Assembly: GCF_000002425.4 (NCBI RefSeq)
Contig: NC_037256.1
Coordinates: 16,340,830 to 16,404,829 of the forward strand
Direction of reading: 5' to 3'
DNA: 64,000 nt
DNA from: Physcomitrium patens
Taxonomy: Eukaryota > Streptophyta > Bryopsida > Funariales > Funariaceae
A program made the position numbers and the translations under genes. Position 1 is the first letter of the stretch. Each line of letters begins with the position of its first letter. The notes below the pieces were generated by a model that saw only the letters and a list, made by a program, of their open reading frames with translations, was not told the DNA's origin and made no database searches. Below are positions 3,512 to 64,000 of the stretch, piece by piece.

Positions 3512-5364
3512 GACAGACGATCGACCTGTTGGAGTCGAAGATGCCTATTGCAGACAGAGAAGATTAAATTTGAAGCAGGGAAAATGCAGACATAAATTGG
3601 TCTCTTCCAGCCAACATTATTAACCAGGATAAATCCTGCATGTAGCTTGCCGGTGACTCATAACCCATCTGCCCCGTTTTGATTGCTTCAGCTCATTTCC
3701 ATTTCAGACCATTTTTGACAAGAGGTATTGATAAGAGCTGAAGGCATCAAAACTGAAATTGAGCAGTAGTCATTGTACAAATTCAAAAATCACTTTAATA
3801 ATATGAGTTTGAGATACTTGACTTGATTGCAGTACTCTTGCGATAATACGAGTGAATAATTAGCCAGTTCAGAAATCAGTATGAAGCTGGTCATGCACAC
3901 AAGAAGGCAACTGATGAATTTGGCCAACATCTTTACTACAAAGGCGGAATTCTCAGCCATTCATTGATGCATCGTAGTCCACTCTAGTTTCAATTTCTGA
4001 ATATGGATGAGGAAAAAATAGTGTTTTTGGTTCGAAATGAGATCATGAACTTCACGTTCCTGCAATAACTGCAACCCACCTTGAGCTCTCATTGGGAGTA
4101 AAGGTGCTCTGATTTTCAACCTAGTGCATTCAAATAGTCAGCGATTCTATTACTCTCTCCTCACCCATCTAATTCATTTAAAGTAGATATCTGTTTAATC
4201 CGAGTGACAATCTACAATCTTTGACAACTCCTAGCTCATTTCGACTATTCTGTACTCACCACCATGCAGACGGACCACGTTTCTGTTGAGTAACTGGAAC
4301 TCTGTTATCTAGAAAGAGTGTCAGAAAAATGAAATAAAATAAAATAAAAATCACCAAATGGAGAGCAGATTCTGTTGAGCACCATGTTGTTCAGCCTTAA
4401 AAATGAACACATAAAACTAAGAAGGAGAGGGTAATCCGCAATAGAATTCCTTGCCCCTCAAATCATGTCACATTATTGCTCTATAAGTATTCATCCTAGG
4501 AGAATGCCAATGACAATTAGTGGAAACTAAGGACTGGACTGGAAGGGGTTTTGAGCAGCAACATTACAAGGTTGGAATTACGTGTGCAGTATGGAGCTTG
4601 TATCGCTGTCAAGCTGCTGGAAATAGAATGGTCTAGAATTTGACAAGAATAGGGATAATGCCTCTATCGACACATTATGGAAGCCGATTTTATCGATGTG
4701 CCAGGGATTAGATGAGCCAATAGCTGTCTTCATCATCCACATGAGCAACAGAAGCGCTGCCATTACCACGTGGAACTTTGCTAAAAATCCTGAAATTTTT
4801 ACTGCACTTTCGTAACCAGTTCAATAAGAAGTCACACTGTAATCTGACGCTACTTACACTTCCCTCATGATTCATTATCCCTGGATGTTAAGTTTCGCTG
4901 AAAAATATTTTATCCTCAGGTGGTCATCAACGACCAGTATCGATAGAGCTAAGTCCGTTTTGAGAGCACTTTACCAACGATCGATAGAAGAATCGGGACG
5001 CAAGCATGAAATTGAACTGGACGATAACTGCCCAGATTGGTTGCTACTACTCCGAGCACCTTTTTCTGTCAAGGTGGTGTCTACTGAAGCAGTACCCCGG
5101 CATTCTGCTAGCATGCTCATCAGCCCCTTAAGCTCCACGATTCTCAGCCATCACCCCAGGTGATTTTTCTGTAGTTTTTTGACGGTGCCCAGTGAATTTG
5201 GTTTATTTCACCAAAAGCGAGGTAAGAGTGATAGACGCCCACCTGCAAGAGTATTGTCGAACCCTTTCTGCGGGAAGTTAGGGCAGTTATTCTAACTGCG
5301 AGACGTGCTCAAATTTTACATTGTTCATGAAAGACAATGGACCTTACCTATCATTAACAATTGG

Positions 5365-12200: not shown

Positions 12201-14281
12201 CATACCTTGTACGGAACGTTGTCTTCCACTCATCTCCTTCCTTGATTCGTACAAGGTTGTAAGCTCCTCTTAGATCAATTTTTGTAAAGATCCTTGCATA
12301 TCCAAGTTGTTCTAAGAGACCAAAAATCAAGGGTAATGGGTAACGATTCTTCTTTGTTACCTTGTTGAGGCCTCGATAGTCCACGCACATCCGCAACGAG
12401 CCATCTTTCTTCTTCACAAATAAGATGGGTGCCCTAATTGACGATTTTGAATGACGAATGAAGTTCTTGGCTAGATTCTTGTCGATGTACTTCCGCAACT
12501 GTGCCAACTCTATCTACGATAGATTGTAGATTAGGCCAAAAGGCGGTTGTGCTACTTCTTGCAAGTCTATGGTGCAATCATATGGTTGGTGTTCCGGTAG
12601 CATGTCTGCATTCTTCTTTTGAAACACGTCTTTAAAATCCTTATATTGCTCTGATATACTTGCTGTCGAGATCTTCTCCGCGGTAGTTGGAGTCGCATAA
12701 ATGACAAACGGTGTGCCTTCCTTGGACGATCTTATAAACGCTCTTGCTCCAATGAATAAGGATTTCTCTATTCGGGGTTTTTCTACTAGGCTTGCTCTTG
12801 GGTGGTTTTGTGGGAAAGGTCATCTTCCGCAACCTCCAATCTATGGATGGGTTATGCTTGTCCAACCAAGAAAGACCAAGAATAACAGAATTTGATGGGG
12901 TTCTAATAATATTGAAAATAATATGACTACTATGGCCCTTAAACGTCACTTCTATAGGTTCTGATTCGTGGGTGACACTACCAGATAATAAAAGTCATCC
13001 ATCTATGATGTCAACGTAAACAGGTTTGGATTTTTGTATTAAAGGGATCTTATGACGCTTCGCAAATTCTTTGTCTTAGAAACAAGCAGATGCTTCTGAA
13101 TCTAATAATGCTAAGGTTCTCAATTTTTGAGGGCCAATAAACAAAGGGATTATAAAGCAGAGGGCAAGTTGAGCGAAAAGAAAGGAACCTGGTTGTTGTT
13201 GCAATATTTTACTGTCTAGCCGCACGGTTCCTATTGTGGCTGGGCATCCTCGTTTTCCTGAATAAATGCGCCCTTAGTCTTGACAATACGTCGATTTTGC
13301 TTCTTGGGATAGTTTCCAACTTTGTGGCCTTTTTCACCACAATACAAGCATAGACCTTCCTCCATACACCGCTTTTTTTCTTCTAGAGTAAGAGATTTGA
13401 CACGTACTGCATCAATTTGCATATCTTCTACCTCTGAATGTGAATTCGTACTGCTTGTCAACATAATTGGGGCGTGGCGAACTGTATGTTGTCTTAAGCG
13501 TTGATCTTGGTGGCGTTGGAATAGGCGGTAATTGCACTTCACAGCTTGGCTAATAGCTTTGTTGAGCGTTTGTGGATCAAGAAGAGTTAACAGCAAATCC
13601 TTCACATCGTCCCTTAAACCCCAATAGAATTGACTCATCAACGCTTCTTCGTCCGAATTGATGTTGCATGCTAATTGCCTGAAGTCCGATGCATAGACTG
13701 ATGTAGAGCGCATCCCTTGTCGTAGTGACCAGATCTTTGTTGTAGCCCATCGAACCTTATTGTGTTCACCAAATGCTTCTGCAGAAGCCTCCAAAAAGGT
13801 TTCAAAGTTGTTTAGTATGGACGATTGTTTCTCAAACAAAGGAGCAAACCATGATAGAGCTTGCCCTGTAAGTAAGGTTCCAACAAGCCCAACACGTGAC
13901 TCCTCCGTTGGATAGCGCTCGAGCTGTAAAACTGTTATCAACTTGATTTGGTTGAAGAATCCTCAAAACTTGGAATACGTACCATCGAACTTATCTGGAA
14001 GGCTAACTCGGGGCTCCTTATGTTGTAGAACCAGCTGTGCTTGTCGAACCTGAGGTAAAGTTGCTTCTCCAAGTGCAGAAGTTTGAGGCTAGTGCAACCT
14101 AGATTGTGCCATCCCAGATGCTCCATCATTATGCAACCTTGCCACGACTCCTTCAATCTCTGTAATTCTTTGCGATAACGTAGCGAGGGCATTCATGATA
14201 GCATCCAACTCGGACTCCGAACTTTCCGTCATAGTAATGACTTGGCCTCCGACCATTCTAAGAGAAGGACAGAAATGACTC

Positions 14282-14520
14282 TACAAGAAGACAATATTGG
14301 TTTAGAGGAGGATACTCCGCAACCTCTAAAATGCCTTAAGAGCTTTAAGAAAAAGGAGTAATCCACTCTCTCTAAGAAGAATAAGACTCCAATATTGTAA
14401 CAAAAGAAGTATCAGTTTAGAGGAGGGTAATCCGCAACCTCTAAAATGCTAGTACACTTCCAAGTAGAGGGATAATCTATACTGTAACGAGGAAGAAACT
14501 AACTCTGATATCTGAGGTGA
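14282..14520 (-). other. Stem-loop leader and primer site of the family A element
   Basis: Between the 5' LTR and gag are inverted repeats TTTAGAGG/CCTCTAAA at 14301-14330 and again at 14416-14445. Each loop carries the motif that reads GYGGATTACCC (or a close variant) on the element strand. At about 14501-14515 the element strand reads GATATCAGAGTTAG, resembling the initiator-Met-tRNA primer site TGGTATCAGAGC. It lies about 25 nt inside the LTR end rather than next to it. Confidence 0.7.
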
Positions 14521-14537
14521 GTGAAGTCTCGACAAAC

Positions 14538-15036
14538 TGTCACGAACACAGAAATACAGACTTGAGATCTAATAAGAAGTTCAAGAAGAACTGGCAAGAA
14601 CTAGATTAATCAGATGAATACAAGAACAACACCAGAGAAGTGAGCTAGAGCTCCAAGAGATGTGTTGTCGAGACTGAAGAACTCTTCAGCCTCGATTCCA
14701 ATATATACTCCTATTTAGGAAGCTTCTCAAGCAACTTCTACCAACTAGGAAGCTTCTAGAAGGTTCCAGAGACTTGATTCTAGAAGATTCTAGAAACTTG
14801 TCTCTAGAAGGTTCTAAGGACTATGTCCCTAACATCTTCTACTAACTAAGAAGCTTCTAGAAGGTTCCAGAGACTTGCTTCTAGAAGATTCTAGAAACTT
14901 GTCTCTAGAAGATTCTAAGGACTATGTTCCTAATATCTTCTACCAACTAAGAAGCTTCTAGAAGGTTCTAGAGACTTGCTTCTAGAAGGTTCTAGAAACT
15001 TGTCTCTAGAAGGTTCTAAGTACTATGTCTCTAAGA
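14538..15036 (-). repeat. Family A 5' LTR (499 bp) with 101-bp subrepeats
   Basis: On the + strand it starts TGTCACG and ends CTCTAAGA. It contains a TATA box read as TATATATTGG on the - strand near 14700. Between the TATA box and the outer end lie tandem 101-bp units (14821-14921, 14922-15022 and a further copy to the left). Each unit includes heat-shock pentamer arrays and an internal copy of the LTR-terminal motif TGTTAGGGACAT, in decayed form. Confidence 0.92.
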
Positions 15037-20818: not shown

Positions 20819-20938
20819 GTTTGTCAAGATTGCCTTCTTTTCAATATAAGAACTTAATCTTTCTTGATAGAGAGTAGATTATCTCTCTTTTTGAAGGCAT
20901 CTAGGTGCTTGAAAGGTTGTAGAGTACCATCTTCTAAA

Positions 20939-20941
<3 letters not shown>

Positions 20942-20981
<40 letters not shown>
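20942..20981. repeat. TA microsatellite
   Basis: An uninterrupted alternating A/T tract inside the leader of the old family A element. Companion TA tracts lie at about 20765-20814 (in the LTR) and 21882-21923 (in the gag region). Confidence 0.95.
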
Positions 20982-27928: not shown

Positions 27929-29828
27929 CTAGCTAGAGATTTAAAATGACGTATAAAATTCTTAGCAAGGTTTTCAATAATATACTCCTTGAATGCAACC
28001 AATTCATTTTGTCATAGCCTATAAATTGGTCCAAATGACAGTTGAGCCTCTTTGTGAAGATGGATAGAACAATTATAAGGACAATGCTTTGGAAGAATAT
28101 CTACGTTTTTCTTTTCAAAAACATCCTAGAAATCTTGATACTCACTAGAAATACTACTTGATGTCTTCTCACTATTAGAAATAGGCATGGCATATAAAGC
28201 AAAAGATAATTCTTTTTTTTGTGGTATGCATAAAAGCTTTCATATCTACCACTAAGGATTTGGATGTACTAGACTTATATATTTTTACTTGACTAATGGG
28301 ATTTTGTATTAAACTTTTGTAATAAAGATTATATTTTTGTAATTAAGATAATTTTAAAATAACTGGATTAGATAGAGATCTTATTATATTAAATATTACT
28401 ATATTATTATGATCTTTAATTTTTATATCTAAAGGAACAATCTCATGCATACCATCTCTAGAAGATAGCAAATAACCATCTATGACTTCTGCATGTACAA
28501 GTTTAGTTTTTTTTATTAACAATATCTCTTCTTTTTTAACATAATCTTTGTCTACAAAATAAGTTGAGGCTCTTAAACCTAATAAAGCTAAGACTTTGTG
28601 ATTTTTTGGTCCTAGATAAACTTCTATTGTAAAAAAAAGGTGAAAGATCTGAAGAGAGAATAGGACCTTTACTAGGAGTTATGCGAGATTCCAACCACAT
28701 GGTCCCTATTCTAGCTAGAGAATTTTTTTTTCCAATATCTCATCTTCTTTGGCAACCATGCTTCTCATTTTGTAATTGCGTTGTTTCTTTAGACAATGTT
28801 GAATAGTATGTTTAGCTTCTCCACAATATAAGCATAAGCCCTTTTGATGTCATCAATTCTTTTCCTACTTTGTGAGGAATTTAAAATGTATTGTATCAAT
28901 TTGCATTAGTTTTGGCCTTGATGAATAAGTTTTTAAAAACTTAGAAGCTGACGTCATTATTTGATTTGTTCTTCTTCAACCAAATCTTTGTTCTTGATAT
29001 CTTTTAAATAATTAATTCTCATATGCAATGGCTTAAGCAATAAATTGTTCCAAAGATTCTATCTTGGATATTATCAATAACAAGTCTTTGACATTATCCT
29101 TCAATCCATATCAAAATTGATTGATAAGGGCTTTGTCATTTCAATCCATGTCGTAAGTGAGGTTTTGGAATTCATTAGTATATATAGAGGCTGACAATGA
29201 TCCTTGTTGTAAAGATAAGAATTTAGTCTTTGCTACTTTTTTTTTTATCACTTTCTCCAAATGTGGCCATAAATAATTCTAGGAATGAGTTTAAATCATA
29301 AAAGAGTCACAAATCTTTTTCCATTAAAGATACAAATCAAAAAAGAGCACTTCTTGATAGAAGTGCACCTATAAATATGACTTGAGTAAATCCATTAGGA
29401 TATTGAAAAAGATGCAACCTTAAATAGAGCTTGATTTCTTGCAAAAATCCTCAAAATTTTGATCTTATTCCGTCAAAATTCTTAGGTATACTAATCCTTG
29501 TCCCTATCATATTTATAGAAGCAAAAATTCCTAGATTTGATTGTAAGGACAATCTACTTGCTTCCTTCAATTGCACAACTTCTTGTAGTAAACTCTAAAC
29601 TTTTTCTATAGGCGTAGGCATAATATGTCCATGATTCACATTAGAAATACGTGAGATTTTCATTCTTATAGTATTGACAAGATCATGAAGATCTACAATA
29701 GTTCCAAATCTATTCTCACTTCTATTGAGAGTAGCATCCATTATCTTTCCTTCCATATACAACTCAAACAAATTCAAAAAGTTAAATTGAAAGAGAGTAA
29801 TCTGCAACCTCTAATAAAAATTTAAACA

Positions 29829-29851
29829 AAAAAGAGTAATCCACTCTTTTT
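29829..29851 (-). other. Perfect leader stem-loop in the old B-like element
   Basis: Arms AAAAAGAG/CTCTTTTT (8 bp) enclose a 7-nt loop that reads TGGATTA on the element strand. It lies between the LTR and gag and is preserved although most of the element has decayed. Confidence 0.7.
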
Positions 29852-31714
29852 AAAGAAAAGATTAGTGTTAGAAAATAAGATTTTTTTTTTAAAGATGGAT
29901 AGTCGGCAACCTTCAAAACGTGTTGACTTTGCAAGATATATATCTTAACTTGCAAAGCAAGTTGTCTATATGTGTGGCACATACTTAGCTTATTCTGCAA
30001 GCTACTAACATATTGTTAACTTGTTGACCAAGTTTCTAACCTATCAATCAACTACAAACATATGTAAAGTCAAAACAACATCTATGAAGCTTCTAAGAAG
30101 CTCTTTTAGAAGGTATTATAAAATTAACCTATTTTTATTTACTTCTATCTAATCATATAGGTATTTATTAGAATACCTATATATATCTGTGATACCAAGC
30201 TTGCTAGAATATGTCATTATCTCATTTTGATTTTGTGATTACATATCAACTAAAAAAGCAACAAAGACCATTAGATGTTTTATCAAAGAAATCATACCTT
30301 GCTTTAAAGGCCAAAGAAAAAAAAAATTAATCAACAATATACCACTCTCTTGAAGCCAAAATAATTTTATCTTTGTACTATTTCTATGATTATACTTGTT
30401 GATTCAATTTTTTTCAAAGAAATTTGTATAGTGTGAGCTAAAGACTAATTAATTTGTAATATCAAGCAGTACGCTAACTAAGAAAAGTTTAAGTTTTTGG
30501 AACATCTTTTGTATTTTTAAGATTGTTTATATATTTTGGAAGGACCAATGCAACTTTGTGTTCTTTAATCTTATCATGACTTTCCAGTTGTAGGACATTT
30601 TGGATTTAACAAAACATTGGAACTTATCTCTCAAGATTTTTAGTGGCGTTAAATGTAGAAGTCCATGAAGGACATTGTTTTCTCATAGAATTTCCAACAT
30701 CATCCTTATGGACTTCTACAGCCACTTCTAATCTCAAAGCAACTATGGTCTTTAATATTAATGGATTTTGTTATTGATGTGCTACTATCAGCTACATTTG
30801 ATTCTATCTACATTGTTGTAGATTGACTTACAAAGATAGCATATTTTATTCCATGAAAAAAAGGTAAGTCAAATAGTATTTATAATGTACCATCAACTAT
30901 CAATAAGTTAACTGGACCTTATATTTATCTTGAGTTAAATTTGCTTATAATAATATTTTTTATGCTTTGACTCAAAAAACACATGTTTATTTCAATTATG
31001 GTTACTATCTAAAGCTTGATTTGTTTAGTTATATCAAAGGATGAAAATCTAGTAGTTGAAGATCTTATAAAACAATTGTTATAGCTCCAAACAATTTTGA
31101 AGCTTTGTTTACAAGTAACTCAAGATTCTTATAAAACATCTTTAAAAAAATTTAGAAAAAAATCCCTTGGTTTTGAAGTTAGAAATAAAGTATGGCTTCT
31201 TTTACAAAATATCAAGACAAATTGGACTTACAACAAGTTGGACTACTAAAGATTGGCATCATTTTATATTCAAAAACAAATCAATCTAATTGCTTATTGG
31301 TTGGAACTACCCACATCTATAAAGGTACATCTAATCTTTCATGTTTTTCTCTTAGATACTTATTCAAAATCAATTATTCTAAAAAGCATACAACCATCAC
31401 CTCCTTGCATTGAAATAGATAATCATGTAGAATGAGATAGAAAAGATCCTTGATTCTTCATGAAGAAGAGACAAGTTGGAATATTTTATTCATTGATGCA
31501 ACTATGATATCAATAAGCGTATGTGAGAACTAGCAAAAAAATATAATTAATGTGCTGCAAAAAGTATAAGAATTTCATTGATGCTATCCTCAAAACCTAA
31601 ACCTATTTTAAGATGAGTTCTTTACAAAGTTACTACTAGGATGTAGTATATAACAAAGAAAGTAGATATGAAACCAATGTTCTTTGTAGAACTTGGAATT
31701 AAAAGAAGAAGTGA

Positions 31715-56839: not shown

Positions 56840-57130
56840 CTAGAGAGAAGTTTCTAGAACCTTCTAGAAAACAAGCCTCTGGAACCTTCTAGAAGAGAAG
56901 CCTCAGGACCCTTTTAGAGAGAAGTTTCTAGAAGCTTCTAGAAGGGAAGTCTCTGGAACCTTCTAGAAGAGAAGTTTCTAGAAGCTTCTAGAAAGGAATC
57001 CCCTGGAATTTTCTAGAAGCTTCCTAGTTAATAGAAGTAGCTCGAGAAGTTTCTAGAACCTTCTAGATAGGAAGCCTCTGGAACCTTCTAGAAGCTTCCT
57101 AGTTAATAGAAGTAGCTCGAGAAGCTTCCT
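56840..57130 (+). promoter_or_regulatory. Heat-shock-element array in the family A LTR
   Basis: Repeated runs such as TTCTAGAACCTTCTAGAA and TTCTAGAAGCTTCTAGAA give alternating TTC/GAA cores at exact 5-bp spacing, four or more units long, in many places across about 290 bp just upstream of the TATA box. Related arrays occur in every family A LTR in this window. This matches the heat-shock-factor consensus seen in single host promoters, here repeated many times. Confidence 0.8.
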
Positions 57131-57139
57131 AAGTAGGAG

Positions 57140-57179
57140 TATATATAGGGATCGAGGCTGAAGAGTTCTTCAGTCTCGA
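57140..57179 (+). promoter_or_regulatory. Family A LTR core promoter with adjoining hairpin
   Basis: TATATATAG at 57140-57148 is followed by arms TCGAGGCTGAAG (57152-57163) and CTTCAGTCTCGA (57168-57179) around a 4-nt loop AGTT. The single mismatch would be a G-U pair in RNA. The expected start site, about 30 bp from the TATA box, falls inside the right arm. Confidence 0.65.
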
Positions 57180-57332
57180 CAACACATCTCTTGGAGTTCT
57201 AGCTCACCTTTCTGGTGTTGTTCTTGTACTCATCTGTTTAATCTAGTTCTGCCACTTCTTCTTGAACTTCTTGTTAGATTTCAAGTCTGTATTTTGTGTC
57301 CGAGACAGTTTGTCGAGACTGCACTAACTTGA

Positions 57333-57346
57333 GATATCAAAGCTAG
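57333..57346 (+). other. Candidate tRNA primer-binding site, offset from the LTR
   Basis: GATATCAAAGC resembles the initiator-Met-tRNA complement TGGTATCAGAGC. It starts 25 nt after the LTR end GAGACA, not directly next to it. Confidence 0.5.
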
Positions 57347-57355
57347 TTCTTTCTT

Positions 57356-57542
57356 AGTAGAGTGTGGATTACCCCTCTACTTGAAGGTATACTAGCATTT
57401 TAGAGGTTGCGGATTACCCTCCTCTAAACTGATACTTCTTTTGTTACAATATTGGAGTCTTATTCTTCTTGGAGAGAGTGGATTACCCATCTTCTTGAAA
57501 TTCTTAAGGCATTTTATAGGTTGTGGATTACCCTCCTATAAA
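57356..57542 (+). other. Repeated stem-loops in the family A leader
   Basis: Three clear inverted repeats: AGTAGAG/CTCTACT (57356-57381, loop 12 nt), TTTAGAGG/CCTCTAAA (57399-57428, loop 14 nt) and TTTATAGG/CCTATAAA (57513-57542, loop 14 nt). Every loop carries G(T/C)GGATTACCC. A fourth copy of the loop motif (about 57479-57488) has a weak stem. The array lies between the primer site and the gag start at 57586. Confidence 0.8.
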
Positions 57543-59463
57543 CCAATATTGCCTCTTATAGAGTCATTTTTGTCCTTCTTTTAGAATGGCCGGAGGTCAA
57601 GACATTAGTATGATAGAAAGTTCGGAGTCTAAGTTAGATGCTATTATGAATGCCCTCGCTACGTTATCACAAAGAACTGCAGAGATTGAAGGAGTGGTGG
57701 CAAGGCTTCATAATGATAGAGTATCTGGGATAGCACAATCTAAACAGCACCAGCCTCAAACTTCTGCACTTGGAGAAACAACTTTACCTCAGGTTCGACA
57801 AGAACCACTAGTTCTACAACATAAGGAGCCTCGAGTTAGCCTTCCAGATAAGTTCGATGGAACACGTTCCAAGTTTCGAGGATTTGTCAATCAAATCAAG
57901 TTGATAACAGTTTTACAACCCGAACGATATCCAACGGAGGAGTCACATGTTGGGCTTGTTGGAACCTTACTTACGCGACAAGCCCTATCATGGTTTGCTC
58001 CTTTGTTTGAGAAACGATCATCCATATTAAACAACTTCGAAACCTTTTTGGAAGCATTTGGTGAACACGATAAGGTTCGATGGGCTACAACAAAGATCCG
58101 GTCACTACGACAGGGGATGCGTTCTACATCAGTCTATGCTTTGGATTTCAGGCAATTAGTATGCGACATCAATTGGGATGAAGAAGCGTTGATGAGTCAA
58201 TTCTATTGGGGTTTAAGAGATGATGTGAAGGATTTGCTATTAACTCTTTCTGATCCACGAACGCTCAATGAAGCCATTAGCCAAGCTGTGAAGTGCGATA
58301 ATCGCCTATTCCAACGTCGCCAAGACCAACGCTCAAGACAACATATAATTCGCCATGCTCCAACTATGTCGACAAGCAGTGTGAATTTGCATTCAGAGGT
58401 GGAAGACATACAAATTGATGCGGTATGTGTCAAATCTCTTACTATAGAAAAAAAAAAGCGACGTATGGAGGAAAATTTATGCTTGTATTGCGGTGGAAAA
58501 GGCCACAAAGTCGGAAACTACCCCAAAAAGTAAAATCGAGGCATAGTTAAGACTAGGGGAGTATTCGTTCAGAAAAACGAGGATGCCCAGCCACAGTAGG
58601 AACCGTGCGGCTGGACAATGAAATATTCCAACAACAATCAGGTTCCTTTCTTTGTGCCTAACCTGCACTTTGTTTTACAATCCCTCTGTTTATCGGCCCT
58701 CAAAAACTGAGAACCTCAGCACTACTAGACTCAGGAGCATCTGCTTATTTTTTAGACGAAGAATTTGTAAAGCGTCATAAGATCCCTTTAGTAAAAAAAT
58801 CAAAACCTGTTCATGTTGAGGTCATAGATGGGCGACCTTAATTGTCTGGTAGCATCACCCATGAATCAAAACCTATAGAAGTAATGTTTAAAGACCATAG
58901 TAGTCATATTATTTTTAATATTATTAGAAACCCATCAAATCCTATTATTCTTGGTCTTTCTTGGTTGAAAAAATATAATCCATTGATAGATTGGAGGTTG
59001 CGGAAGATGACTTTTTCCACAAAATCATCCAAGAAAAAACCTAGTAAAAAACCTCGAAAAAAGAAATCCTTATTCATTGGAGCAAGAGCGTTTATAAGAT
59101 CATATAACGAAGGCACTCCATTTGTCATTTATGCGGCTCCAACTACCGAGGAGAAGATCTCAACAGCAAGTATACCGGAGCAATATAAAGATTTTGAAGA
59201 CGTGTTTTAAAAGAAGAATGCCGACATACAACTGGAACACCGACCATATGATTGTGCCATAGACTTGCAAGAAGGAGCACAACCACCTTTTGGCCCAATC
59301 TACAATCTATCGCAAACGGAGTTGGCAGAGTTACGAAAGTACATCGACAAGAATCTAGCCAAGAACTTCATTCGTCATTCAAAATCATCAGCTGGAGCAT
59401 CCATCTTAATTGTGAAGAAGAAAGATGGATCATTACGGATGTGTGTGGACTATCGAGGCCTCA

Positions 59464-60024
59464 TGTCACGGCCATAATCATGTAAGCTAATAATTACATA
59501 TAGAAATAGGTAGAAGTAAGTAAAAGTAGATAAAAGTAAGTTAATTCTATAATATTTAATATAGAAGCTTCCTAGAAACTTCCTAGATGCTGCTTTGACT
59601 TTATAGGTGTCTTTAATTGACTTTTTGGATTAGAAACGTGGTCAACAAGTTGGCCATGTGCCACACATGTTGTTAGCTTGAAGATCAAGCTAACTATGTG
59701 GCCCATACGTAGAAAAACTTGCCTTGTAAGTCAAGGCATGTGTCCTACAAAGTCAACACATATTGGAGGTCCTATAGAACGTCACCACGTAGCCCCTAAT
59801 TAGATAGTATATATAGAGACAAGAGTGAAGGCTTCTTCACTCTTGTCAACTCCTTTCTTGCTTCTAGTCTAGTTTCAAGGGTCTCTAGTTTTCTTGTCTT
59901 TTGGCAATAGCCATTCTAGTTTCTCTTTTCAATATACATACTTATTATTCATATTTTGTTACTTTTCTTTGAGTGAAGGCTTACTTGTCTGAACTGTTTT
60001 TTCATCGAGTTCTTGTCCTTGACA
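59464..60024 (+). repeat. Family B 5' LTR (about 561 bp)
   Basis: Begins TGTCACGGCCATAATC. The right end is set at CCTTGACA by analogy with family A, whose LTR ends are fixed by target duplications. The 3' LTR lies outside the window, so the right boundary is inferred. TATA box TATATATAG at about 59808-59816. Related decayed LTRs are at 8111, 18673, 23879 and 56174. Confidence 0.85.
59818..59847 (+). promoter_or_regulatory. Perfect 13-bp hairpin after the family B TATA box
   Basis: Arms GACAAGAGTGAAG and CTTCACTCTTGTC enclose a 4-nt loop GCTT. It begins one or two bases after the TATA box, the same position and geometry as the family A hairpin. Decayed versions are visible in the older B-like LTRs near 24050 and 56350. 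Confidence 0.75.
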
Positions 60025-60045
60025 GATTGACAAGAGTGTACTTAC

Positions 60046-60142
60046 AATATCAGAGCTTTGTTTTTCTTGAGTGAGAGTGGATTACCCCTTTCTCTTCACA
60101 AGACATAAGCGTATTAGAAGTTTGCGGATTATCCACTTCTAA
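60046..60142 (+). other. Family B leader: primer-like site and stem-loops
   Basis: ATATCAGAGC (60047-60056) resembles the initiator-Met-tRNA primer complement, 22 nt inside the LTR end. GTGAGAG/CTCTTCAC (60071-60099, one bulged T) and TTAGAAG/CTTCTAA (60114-60142, loop 15 nt) present the loop motifs TGGATTACCCC and GCGGATTATCC, as in family A. Confidence 0.72.
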
Positions 60143-63100
60143 ACTGATATTGTTCTTAGTATCTTCTTTGTTATCAAGTCTTTGTTTTCTTTTGTCTTGA
60201 GCAGTATCAAACAAATTTTTCTTCTTAGTATCATTATAGCAGAGCTTCTTGAAATGAAGAGTGCAATGGCACAAATGCAAGAGCAAATGAGGGAGTTAAT
60301 GCTTGCGATGCATCAACTCAATTCACCAACACAGGAAAGAACAAGAATAGCAGAAAGTGAGGATATAGAGATGATCGGAGCTGCTTCAACATCTACAACA
60401 AATCACTTTCCTTCTCCAAATGCACAACACCCTATAAGCACTAGAGAACCAAGAATTGCCTTACTTGAGAAATTTGATGGTACGAGAACAAAGCTTCGAG
60501 GGTTCATCAATCAAGTACAATTGGCAATTGAACTTCAACCGCAAAGCTATCCAACTCCAGGATCACAAGTCAGGTTTATTGACACTCTACTTTCTGGTTC
60601 TGCATTATCGTGGTTTTCGTCTTTTCTTGAACAACGAAATCCAATATTGGACAATTTGAAAGCTTTTTTGGCGGAGTTTCGATCTATGTATGGTGAACAC
60701 GATGGAACTCGTGTTGCAACAAATAAGATCCGAATTCTGCGACAAAGAAATCACTCGGTAACACTGTATGCTTCACAATTTCGACAACTTGCAATTGACA
60801 TTAAGTAGGATGATGCTGCATTCATCAGTCAATTTCTTTATGGATTGTAATACAAAGTAAAGAAATTGATGCTCAACTTACCTGATCCTCAAACTTTGAG
60901 TCAAACAATCGATTTTGCAATAAAATGTGATAATCGACTTTTCGAATTTCGATCCGAGAATCATTTATGGGAACCTCAACGTTATTACTCAATGGCAACA
61001 TCAACATCTTTGCCAAACGTACATTTGGAAGTAGAAGACATGCAAATTGACGCGGTACGTTTTAAACCCCTAACTGAGCAAGAAAAGATTCGTCGTCGTC
61101 AAGAAGGATTATGTTTATATTGCGGAGAACCTAAGCACACTGCTCAACATTGTCCAAAGAAGCGACGCAACTATAAAATGAGGGGTACGACGGTCAAAGA
61201 AAACAACATGTCAGAAAACGGATTCGTCCAGCTACCATAGGGACTGTGCAGCTGGAACCTTGTACAATTCCTAATGAAGGTCCTATCCTCTCCTCAGAAC
61301 CCTCTCCTTGTTTTATAATAGACTTATATTTAGGACCTAAGAATTACAAAGCCTCTGCTTTATTAGATTCGGGAGCTTCAAAATGTTTTTTAGATGAACA
61401 ATTTGTTAAAAGTCGTAAAATACCCTTTGTACAAAAACCTAAACCAGTACATGTAGAAGTCATAGATGGTCGTCCCTTGTCTTTTGGAGATGTCACTCAT
61501 GAAACTCATCCTATAAAAGTAACAATAGACGGTCATGATAGCTACATAGCTTTTAACATAATTAAATCCTCGTCCAATCCAGTTATTTTAGGTTTATCCT
61601 GGCTAGAAAAATATAACCCTCGAATAAATTGGAATTCGCGTAAACTTGACTTTCTCCAGAGCGTTATTAATAGTTCTACTAACCAAGTAAAAAATTATAA
61701 GTCTAGTATAGTAAAACCCGTACTGATAGGTGCAAAAGCATTTATACACGCAGCAAAAGAAGGATCAACTTTTGCTATTTATGCTGCACCTATTTCTGAA
61801 AATGTAAAGACTTCAAGTGGCATTCCAAGTCAATATCAGGAGTATCAAGACGTTTTTGAGAAAAAGAATGCAGATATTCTTCCTGAGAATCGCCCATATG
61901 ATTGTTCAATCGACCTCAAGGAAGGAACTCAGCCACCATTTGGACCAATTTACAGTTTATCGCAAGATGAGATGGTTGAACTCAAGACATATATTGACGA
62001 GAATTTAGCAAAGAATTTCATACGCCATTCAAAATCTCCAGCAGGAGCTCCAATTCTATTCGTAAAGAAAAAAGATGGATCTTTACGAATGTGTGTTGAT
62101 TATCGAGGACTCAACAAGATCACAATCAAGAACAGGTATCCATTACCTTTGATATCAGAACTCCTTGATCAGTTGAATCAAGCTAAGATCTATACAAAAA
62201 TAGATCTAAGAGGAGCATATAATCTAGTACGGATCAAAGAAGGAGATGAATGGAAGACTGCATTTCGAACCAGGTATGGACATTTCGAATATAATGTCAT
62301 GCCGTTTGGACTCACGAATGCACCAGCTGCTTTTCAACATCTCATGAATGATGTATTTCGTGAATTCTTAGACAATTTTGTCATCTGCTATCTAGACGAT
62401 ATCCTGATCTATTCTAAGAACGTCGAAGAACATGAAATACATGTTCGACAAGTATTACAAAAACTTAGAGATGCAGGATTGTACGCCAAGATAGAAAAGT
62501 GTGTATTTCACACTACTCAAGTTGACTTTTTAGGATACATCATTTCAAATGATGGTCTCATGATGGATTCTAAGAAAGTCCAAACAATCATGGATTGGAA
62601 GATTCCAAAGACAGTAAGAGATGTCCAATGTTTCTTGGGATTTGCTAATTACTATCGGATCTTCATCAAAGATTTCTCACGAGTTGCAGCTCCACTTACA
62701 CGCTTGACTAGTAAAGATAAATTCCAATGGAATCAAGAAGCGGAAGTAGCATTTGAAGCCTTGAAGACATCGTTTGTCTCTGCACCAATCTTATATCTTG
62801 TTGACTTTTTCAAGGCATTTTTTATGGAAACAGATGCATCAGATTTTGCCTTGGGTGCAGTTTTATCACAAATGGGAACAGATGACAAACTTCATCCGAT
62901 AGCTTTTCATTCAAGAAAATTCTCAGCAGCCGAGATTAATTATGAGATCTACGATAAAGAACTTCTTGCGATCGTGGATTCCTTTCAAAAATGGCGTCAT
63001 TATCTCAAAGAGGCTTTCTTGTCCAGTCACTGTGTATACAGATCACAAGAACCTCGAGTATTTCATGTCAGCATGTGTGTTGAATCGTCGTCAAGCTCGT

Positions 63101-64000
63101 TGGAGTATGTCTTTGTCAAGATTCAATTTCATTATCACTTATCGGCCAGGAAAACAACAAGGTTTGTCTGATGTCCTATCTAGATGTTCTTATTTTACAC
63201 CAAAAGAAGGAGATGCAGCTTTTGAGCACAAAGAACGGTCCTCTTGATACCGGAGCAATTTCATCTCCGAGCAATGAAATCAACATTGACTGTTGATTCA
63301 ACTTTTCTCAAGCAAATCCAGTCCAGTATGTCCTCAGACCCTCTTGTTTATGATATCAAGAATAATTCTTCCAAGTCTCATGATCCTTCTAAGTTCGAGT
63401 TCAAGAATAATCTATTATATTTTGAAGGACGCCTATATGTTCCAGAAGGAAAAGCACGTTTACGTGTTCTTCAAGCACGTCATGACTTTCCAGCAGCAGG
63501 GCACTTTGGATATAATAAGACTTTGGAACTCATATCAAGAGATTTTTGGTGGCCACAAATGTGGAAGTCAGTCAAAGACTTTGTACAATCATGTGATATT
63601 TGTTCAAGATCAAAAATTCCTCATCATCGACCTTACGGACTTCTTCAGCCATTACCTATACCAGAACAACCATGGTCTTCTGTTTCTATGGATTTCATCA
63701 CAGATCTTCCAAGCTCAAGATCTTATGATTCTATATTTGTGATAGTAGATCGTTTCACCAAGATGGCACATTTTGTGCCATGTACAAAATCTATCACAGA
63801 TGAAGAAACAGCTAAGCTTTTCATTGATAATATCTATCGCTATTATGGATTACCTAAAAATATCATATCGGATAGGGGAACTCAATTTGTGTCAAGATTC
63901 TGGAGGACCCTTTTCAAGATTTTAAAAGTGGACATAAAGCTATCTTCGGCTTTCCATCCTCAAACTGATGGACAAACAGAGCACGTAAACCAAGTCTTGG

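Follow-up and report, generated by a model that had tools for sequence, protein, structure and literature searches.

The window analysed here, 64,000 nucleotides of the Physcomitrium patens genome, contains two nested families of Ty3/gypsy retrotransposons. Family A lies upstream of 59463, and the RT region of its copy 1 is interrupted at 59464 by an insertion of family B. The family A LTR ends at 57307, as supported by one complete LTR pair (locus L025), and is followed directly by the primer-binding site. The 5' LTR of family B appears to span 59464–60024, and the element runs off the window. Each family has a primer-binding site complementary to its own LTR. Together with Pfam matches to gag in family A and to RT, RNase H and integrase in family B, which make up a Ty3-type gag and pol, this agrees with the Tcn1/Tf1-sushi group. 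Self-priming has been predicted for most chromoviruses of the moss and club-moss Tcn1 clade (PMC6317226). The main features of the two elements are as follows.

57172–57182, plus strand: family A LTR stretch that would pair with the primer-binding site, read directly
57308–57321, plus strand: family A self-priming primer-binding site, reverse complement of the LTR stretch AGTCTCGACAA
57586–58533, plus strand: gag of family A copy 1, an open reading frame with Pfam matches to Retrotrans_gag (6.9e-10) and Ty3_capsid (27.1 bits, below the cutoff of 29.1)
60027–60038, plus strand: family B self-priming primer-binding site, reverse complement of LTR 59838–59849
61246–63171, plus strand: family B protease-RT-RNase H (Pfam RVT_1, 5.2e-41)

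With the start of transcription placed from the TATA box, 57172–57182 would lie at the 5' end of the RNA. The zinc knuckle of the gag of family A copy 1 is imperfect. Relatives of this gag combine a Ty3-like capsid match with a zinc-knuckle pattern; the Pfam score of the knuckle was below the cutoff of 20.8 bits in two of three relatives (17.2 and 12.5), and the third, a shorter protein, had none. A P. patens protein matching at 87% over 60% of the query is among the 120 of 307 gag relatives listed. The family A LTR also contains, at 56845–57118, an array of repeats of about 25 bases rich in TTCnnGAAnnTTCnnGAA, a pattern typical of heat-shock elements. Provided that family A is RLG1, these repeats contrast with the reported repression of RLG1 by heat shock (PMC7466625). 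Transcription of RLG1 is reported from protonema.

A three-way junction between the primer-binding site and gag

An earlier note on this DNA had described at least three inverted repeats between the LTR and gag that present one fixed loop motif, GYGGATTACCC, on different stems. We find that the unit of the leader is a module of about 110 nt, folded as a three-way junction with a basal helix (P1), a long arm (P2) and a further arm (P3). Modules stand in tandem, one to three per leader of the self-priming elements, between the self-priming site and the start of gag, and the distance from that site to P1 is about 5 bases in family B and about 10 in family A. The window holds these modules and hairpins.

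57331–57438, plus strand: module 1 of family A copy 1 (P1 57331–57339/57430–57438, P2 arm 57342–57396, P3 arm 57399–57428)
57364–57374, plus strand: P2 head of this module, G[U]GG-AUUA-CCC, MS2-operator-like, from direct reading and structure prediction
57409–57419, plus strand: P3 head of this module, G[C]GG-AUUA-CCC, MS2-operator-like, likewise from direct reading and structure prediction
57447–57551, plus strand: module 2 of family A copy 1 (P1 57447–57455/57543–57551, P2 arm 57457–57510, P3 arm 57513–57542)
57478–57488, plus strand: P2 core hairpin of module 2, absent from the stems named in the earlier note
57523–57533, plus strand: P3 core hairpin of module 2, read directly
60044–60153, plus strand: single module of family B (P1 60044–60053/60144–60153 with 10 perfect pairs, P2 arm 60055–60110, P3 arm 60114–60142)
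60077–60087 and 60124–60134, plus strand: cores of the family B module, the latter being GCGGATTATCC
14404–14514, minus strand: module 1 of family A copy 2, partly decayed (nhmmer 95.6 bits)
14289–14399, minus strand: module 2 of family A copy 2 (covariance model 109.1 bits, z −3.36), with P3 TTTAGAGG/CCTCTAAA
20833–20958, plus strand: old decayed module unlike both main families (model 66.9 bits, E 7e-17)
29772–29873, minus strand: remnant of an old B-like module (model 33.4 bits, E 1e-6)

In the consensus, P1 has 8–10 pairs, P2 is a long interrupted arm and P3 has 8 pairs, and at most one base separates the 3' strands of P3 and P1. The same small hairpin, G-[U/C bulge]-GG-ANUA-CC-C, caps both P2 and P3, and in it GG/CC pairs carry an ANUA tetraloop above a bulged pyrimidine; a second bulge or small internal loop sits below this head. 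Alignment of the window modules with other places in the genome showed that the paired stem-loops are closed by P1 as a long-range helix. Its strands are ACAATATCAG and CTGATATTGT in family B, CAATATTGG and CCAATATTG in module 2 of family A, and CGATTTCAG and CTGAAATCG in the third module of L029, which belongs to a three-module family.

The inverted repeats of the earlier note are thus real, with four hairpins in family A copy 1 (57364–57374, 57409–57419, 57478–57488 and 57523–57533), and its family B stems and old B-like copy were likewise borne out. The motif does recur, but as a small hairpin and not as a plain loop, and it is not strictly fixed, with variants GCGGATTATCC at 60124 and GCGGAGTATCC in the copy at 14.3 kb. 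The note had missed P1 and the lower part of P2, and the module at 20833–20958 is an addition to its list.

Module 1 of family A copy 1 has an MFE of −36.6 kcal/mol (z −3.82, none of 200 shuffles as low) and scores 127.8 bits with the covariance model. The corresponding values are −30.9 kcal/mol for module 2 (z −2.77, 2 of 200 shuffles as low), whose single-sequence MFE pairs the P2 tip otherwise than the consensus, and −34.7 kcal/mol for the family B module (z −5.37, 0 of 200; 106.6 bits), where the MFE tips of P2 and P3 depart from the consensus. The decayed module 1 of copy 2 has a broken P2 tip (z −1.62, 13 of 200 shuffles as low), and the three-way junction is absent from the MFE of 20833–20958 itself. 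Across 24 seed modules, all three helices were present in the single-sequence MFE of 18. Adjacent modules overlap by about 10 flank bases, and cmsearch gave one of each such pair; four further weak covariance-model matches (E 0.011–0.48, in LTR repeats) were disregarded. The window contains 16 occurrences of GGATTACCC with at most one mismatch, against 6.5 expected, and 2 of 100 shuffles had as many. One exact GCGGATTACCC at 4429–4439 (minus strand) has no surrounding module (7.6 bits, E 0.66) and looks like a chance match.

Among the copies examined, there is little variation at the bulged pyrimidine and at the outer adenines of the loop. In 76 copies, the loop of hairpin a reads A (75), T (73, with C in 3), T (74) and A (76), and that of hairpin b reads A (75), T (59) or G (17), T (76) and A (76). 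The outer adenines are thus nearly invariant in both hairpins, U predominates at the second loop position with C or G as the alternatives, the third position is almost always U, and the bulged base is U or C (75 and 76 of 76 copies). These figures overstate core conservation, because the loci were chosen for an exact core; nearly all come from one contig. Locus L001 has one AUAA loop. A search of the whole window against Rfam 15 gave no match at curated score, and 57300–57600 gave two matches up to E 10, the better (E 1.2) on the opposite strand and both far below their cutoffs.

Across the 470-Mb assembly, GYGGATTACCC occurs 12,396 times (6,221 + 6,175), compared with 40 (20 + 20) for the reversed control; the purine-bulge form GRGGATTACCC occurs 129 times (70 + 59; control 38, 25 + 13). 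RLG1 of P. patens has 5,092 complete copies (PMC7466625), which suits the number of cores, and we infer that one of the two families, A or B, is RLG1. The G-C to T-A exchange that the earlier note had seen in both arms of P3 is also real: the 14281–14406 copy (minus strand) has TTTAGAGG/CCTCTAAA, and module 2 of family A copy 1 has TTTATAGG/CCTATAAA. Genome-wide, in an exact 30-base setting and with TTTAGAGG/CCTCTAAA as the unchanged form, both sides were changed in 366 places (169 + 197), the 5' side alone in 3 (2 + 1) and the 3' side alone in 4 (4 + 0). Six of the seven single forms lie in first modules, one in a third, and none in the second-module lineage of the double; the singles therefore look like later mutations, not intermediates.

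Evidence for selection on pairing

Base pairing is kept beyond chance in the 24 seed modules. Over 40 pairs, 90.5% of cells are paired compared with 82.4% in shuffles, 21 pairs have changed on both sides (15.1 in shuffles), and 95 cells have changed on both sides (37.6 in shuffles; 11–32 in slid pairings), with 0 of 500 shuffles as high each time. Further pair types were only weakly above shuffles (54 versus 50.1; 32 of 500 as high) on alignment A3, where P1 of the third module of L026/L029 is one base out of register, so that the P1 counts of this module are reduced. RNAalifold gave −49.3 for the 76 copies, compared with a mean of −11.8 (sd 3.2; lowest −22.7) across 100 simulated alignments that shared their tree and substitutions.

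We then followed changes along trees of modules. A first set held the nhmmer modules of at least 30 bits (79, of which 76 distinct); a second held 110 modules minus 14 from the seven single-mutant loci, leaving 96, of which 90 distinct. Columns with gaps in half or more of the rows were dropped (126 of 135 kept in the first set). Because circularity had to be avoided, the structure was the minimum-energy fold of L001 alone, and L001 was dropped from the tree, leaving the other 89 distinct modules. Among single changes on the 87 internal branches, 58 preserved pairing and 40 disrupted it; among double changes, 12 preserved it and one disrupted it. The kept fraction of 0.631 (null 0.427) and the 12 kept doubles (null 2.6, largest 9) were each reached in 0 of 1000 simulations, and 41 pairs were broken where 71.5 were expected. 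On the 86 short terminal branches, which should carry mostly mutations that arose after insertion, singles kept pairing 56 times and broke it 58 times. Here the kept fraction (0.504; null 0.485, 327 of 1000 at least as high) was neutral-like, with 3 kept doubles (95 of 1000 as high). Three long terminal branches were intermediate (kept fraction 0.556 versus 0.491; doubles 4 versus 2.0, 119 of 1000).

The smaller first set gave the same branch picture, with nine internal doubles, three each in P1, P2 and P3. Its terminal doubles were raised, at 8 versus 3.4 on long branches (8 of 1000 as high) and 3 versus 1.3 on short ones. Changes in paired columns were rarer on internal branches (paired to unpaired 148:116, compared with 138:62 on short terminal branches; Fisher p 0.005); the contrast of paired and unpaired columns in the first set, over all terminals and with core columns set apart, gave p 2e-6. 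Eight decoy folds had 0–1 kept internal doubles compared with 12 in the true fold, and only doubles separate clearly: kept singles were far above the null for a slide of −2 (0 of 200 as high) and mildly high for slides of −1, +2 and +4 (7, 6 and 16 of 200), and a slide of −4 stood out on the short terminal branches (2 of 200 as high).

The pairing beyond neutral drift that the earlier note had made the measure of its idea is thus found on internal branches, and its selected RNA structure is supported, for the three-way junction as a whole. The significant single covarying pairs that it had named as support did not appear: none of 7,626 pairs reached E<0.05 in an R-scape-like per-pair test, and its two-set form picked out 1 of 38 structure pairs. 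We attribute this to the small number of independent lineages. Note that the aggregate tests were run after the per-pair test and all rely on a single alignment method, a single tree method and reconstruction by parsimony, and that the double changes rest on about 10 branches.

Inverted repeats can also be corrected by template switching or palindrome correction, in which one arm is copied into the other and no structure need be selected. The few branches that carry double changes and the raised terminal doubles of the first set would suit such a process. However, correction during host replication should strike young insertions, and the short terminal branches are neutral overall; correction would yield only Watson-Crick pairs, whereas G-U cells outnumber A-C cells three to one (79 versus 26 in the 24 seeds); and the shortfall of broken pairs on internal branches also speaks against it. 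Switching during reverse transcription itself is harder to dismiss, but overall we regard arm correction as very improbable.

The excess of G-U over A-C points to the sense RNA, which folds better than the antisense in 21 of 24 seeds, and in the leaders read the core has a single orientation relative to gag. These observations also bear on the idea that GGATTACCC is a transcription-factor site downstream of the promoter, acting as a regulatory repeat in DNA. Such a site would be repeated and highly conserved, as the core 11-mer is, but the arms vary in sequence and stay paired, P1 and P2 covary at a distance, and the preference for one orientation and the sense strand is hard to reconcile with it; we consider it the most improbable of the explanations weighed here. 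The fold is kept, on the sense strand, along lineages that leave progeny, and we are nearly certain that it is a real RNA fold.

Spread of the module among leaders and relatives

Leader groups with one, two and three modules numbered 30, 34 and 4 of 68, a rough grouping that includes the seven single-mutant loci and decayed copies and in which some stretches are shortened. Each genomic RNA therefore presents the small hairpin two to six times. Outside the moss genome, four scans of viral contigs gave no related locus, and one of prokaryote genome contigs gave seven (L001–L007). Plant-type LTR retrotransposons lie in public cyanobacterial assemblies (Synechococcales MAG81, Trichormus bin), and these seven loci are presumably plant contamination of those assemblies. 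L001, whose gag is 76% identical, is probably from another moss, and its leader, in a contig of a cyanobacterial assembly, has one module. L002–L007 (gag 41–48% identical), perhaps from a fern, have short leaders and gave no hit with the covariance model up to E 1, so the module is not a general requirement of the clade. With the covariance model, the genome of L001 gave one module among the 150 of 1,048 first-look candidates scored, and that of L002 gave none among 150 of 2,127.

The left strand of P1 points to another mode of priming at first sight. It contains TATCAGAGC and resembles the primer-binding site for tRNA-iMet; as a working tRNA primer site it was rejected, given that the LTR ends 23–26 bases upstream and the self-priming site comes at once after it. 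In L040 (354–479) and L045 (92–217) this strand is TGGTATCAGAGC, which matches the plant tRNA-iMet primer site in full, and in L047 (344–469) and L048 (349–474) it is one base off. In these four elements the LTR ends 23 bases upstream and the self-priming site is next. The L040-type leader was perhaps captured from a tRNA-primed element.

A role in the start of reverse transcription, with the module aiding the folding of the self-primed complex or stalling reverse transcriptase, would fit this P1 strand of the L040 family and the short distance between P1 and the self-priming site. It is harder to square with a third module that begins 268 bases after the first (L026), and L002–L007 have a self-priming-like site yet no module; we think such a role distinctly unlikely.

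The leader of L029 is a mosaic: over about 250 bases its sequence changes from that of the three-module family to that of family A and then returns. At about 3800–4040, 200–250 bases with the LTR end, primer site and module 1 are closer to family A (97.5% versus 86%), and the LTR and body match the three-module family at about 94–100%. This one case fits co-packaging of RNAs from two families, and equally gene conversion.

Candidate roles of the hairpin array

We found no description of the module in the titles and abstracts of the open-licence papers that our searches listed, and leader RNA structure is not mentioned in the parts of three papers considered here, on RLG1 (PMC7466625), moss Tcn1-like elements (PMC2864245) and the Tcn1 clade (PMC6317226). 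In the sections considered, a recent review of LTR retrotransposons in plants gives no mapped site for RNA packaging (PMC12786077). Retroviruses keep packaging signals in the 5' untranslated region (PMC8096270, PMC4974528), and the moss leaders have structured RNA at the psi-type position between the primer-binding site and gag. This site, and gag relatives with a Ty3-like capsid and a knuckle pattern, point to packaging. We consider it an evenly balanced question whether the array of modules is a multivalent Gag/nucleocapsid packaging signal. Because the bulge and loop are kept and the arms mainly need pairing, a protein probably reads the heads, and the likeliest reader would be the Gag of the element, with its Ty3-like capsid region and one zinc knuckle. 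P1, P2 and P3 would set both heads in a fixed geometry, and the copies of the head would add up, as in a protein-binding array. Reading of the heads would then bring full-length RNA into virus-like particles, in the way that phage coat protein recognises its operator hairpin and retroviral Gag its leader.

Known systems resemble the module in part. Yeast Ty3, of the same superfamily, has a cis-acting sequence in its 5' end and a Gag with one CCHC knuckle needed for RNA packaging (PMC4974528); unlike the self-priming moss families, Ty3 depends on tRNA-iMet. The same source says that the Gag binding sites of Ty1 and Ty3 are not precisely known, and its text on Ty3, in the parts considered, mentions no such module. 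The bifurcated SL4 of the mouse mammary tumour virus packaging signal likewise forks, within the 5' untranslated region, into two apical loops, and Gag binding and packaging require one of them (PMC8096270). In SL4, however, one loop is a dimerisation site that is self-complementary and the other a run of purines, whereas the moss module has identical bulged ANUA heads and is repeated up to three times. The earlier note had suggested packaging, dimerisation or translation control; kissing-loop dimerisation looks the least likely of these, since by inspection the AUUA and AGUA loops are not self-complementary.

The closest likeness of the head is to the R17/MS2 operator. Both have G-N-GG-AUUA-CC-C, in which one unpaired base bulges out two pairs below an ANYA tetraloop; that loop stands on two G-C pairs. 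MS2 is characterised by an ANYA loop and a protruding adenosine (PMC10380284), and a preprint calls GAGGAUUACCC a wild-type-like MS2 sequence (PMC12803234). The bulge is A in MS2 and U or C in the moss module, whose hairpins moreover are paired on a three-way junction and have a second bulge or internal loop below the head. Since no phage origin is suggested, we regard the likeness as resemblance, not kinship. MS2 coat protein tolerated every bulge base except G (PMC12803234, preprint), and its binding to the moss head is therefore possible. We suggest, tentatively and with more doubt than belief, that Gag or a host protein selects the RNA by multivalent binding to tandem bulged ANUA hairpins, the R17/MS2 solution reached independently.

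The tandem identical heads would suit a host protein too, acting in RNA export, stability or protection from decay, as with the RTE/MTE or the ENE triple helix. The RTE and the MTE of MusD serve export (PMC12786077), and the plant element Evade uses structured ENE RNA for stability (PMC12501189). The ENE, however, sits in the 3' UTR, and nothing in our analysis points to a host reader; we consider this role unlikely. Alternatively, the modules could slow or gate scanning to the gag start and so divide the RNA between translation and copying. Three inferred 5' leaders of 409–417 nt (57170–57585, 59846–60254 and 14256–14672, the last on the minus strand) contain no ATG, compared with 3.6–4.5 expected in each. 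Ordinary scanning is therefore likely, and structure in its path would matter. But a mere roadblock needs no near-invariant bulge and loop, and avoidance of ATG suits plain scanning without an IRES or shunt; we find translation control quite unlikely.

Packaging remains the reading that we prefer. Whatever reads the heads, we describe a compact, repeated and evolutionarily supported RNA module in abundant elements of a model plant, so that what selects retrotransposon RNA becomes directly testable. The contrast between internal and terminal branches offers a general way to tell selected RNA structure from the neutral decay of repeats. The near-identity to the MS2 operator would amount to convergence, and those who use MS2 tags in this moss should bear it in mind. 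If the MS2-like solution is true, MS2 coat protein may bind the RNA of these elements, and MS2-tag experiments in this moss could mark their native transcripts; by the same token, the RNA of these elements could be imaged without a tag.
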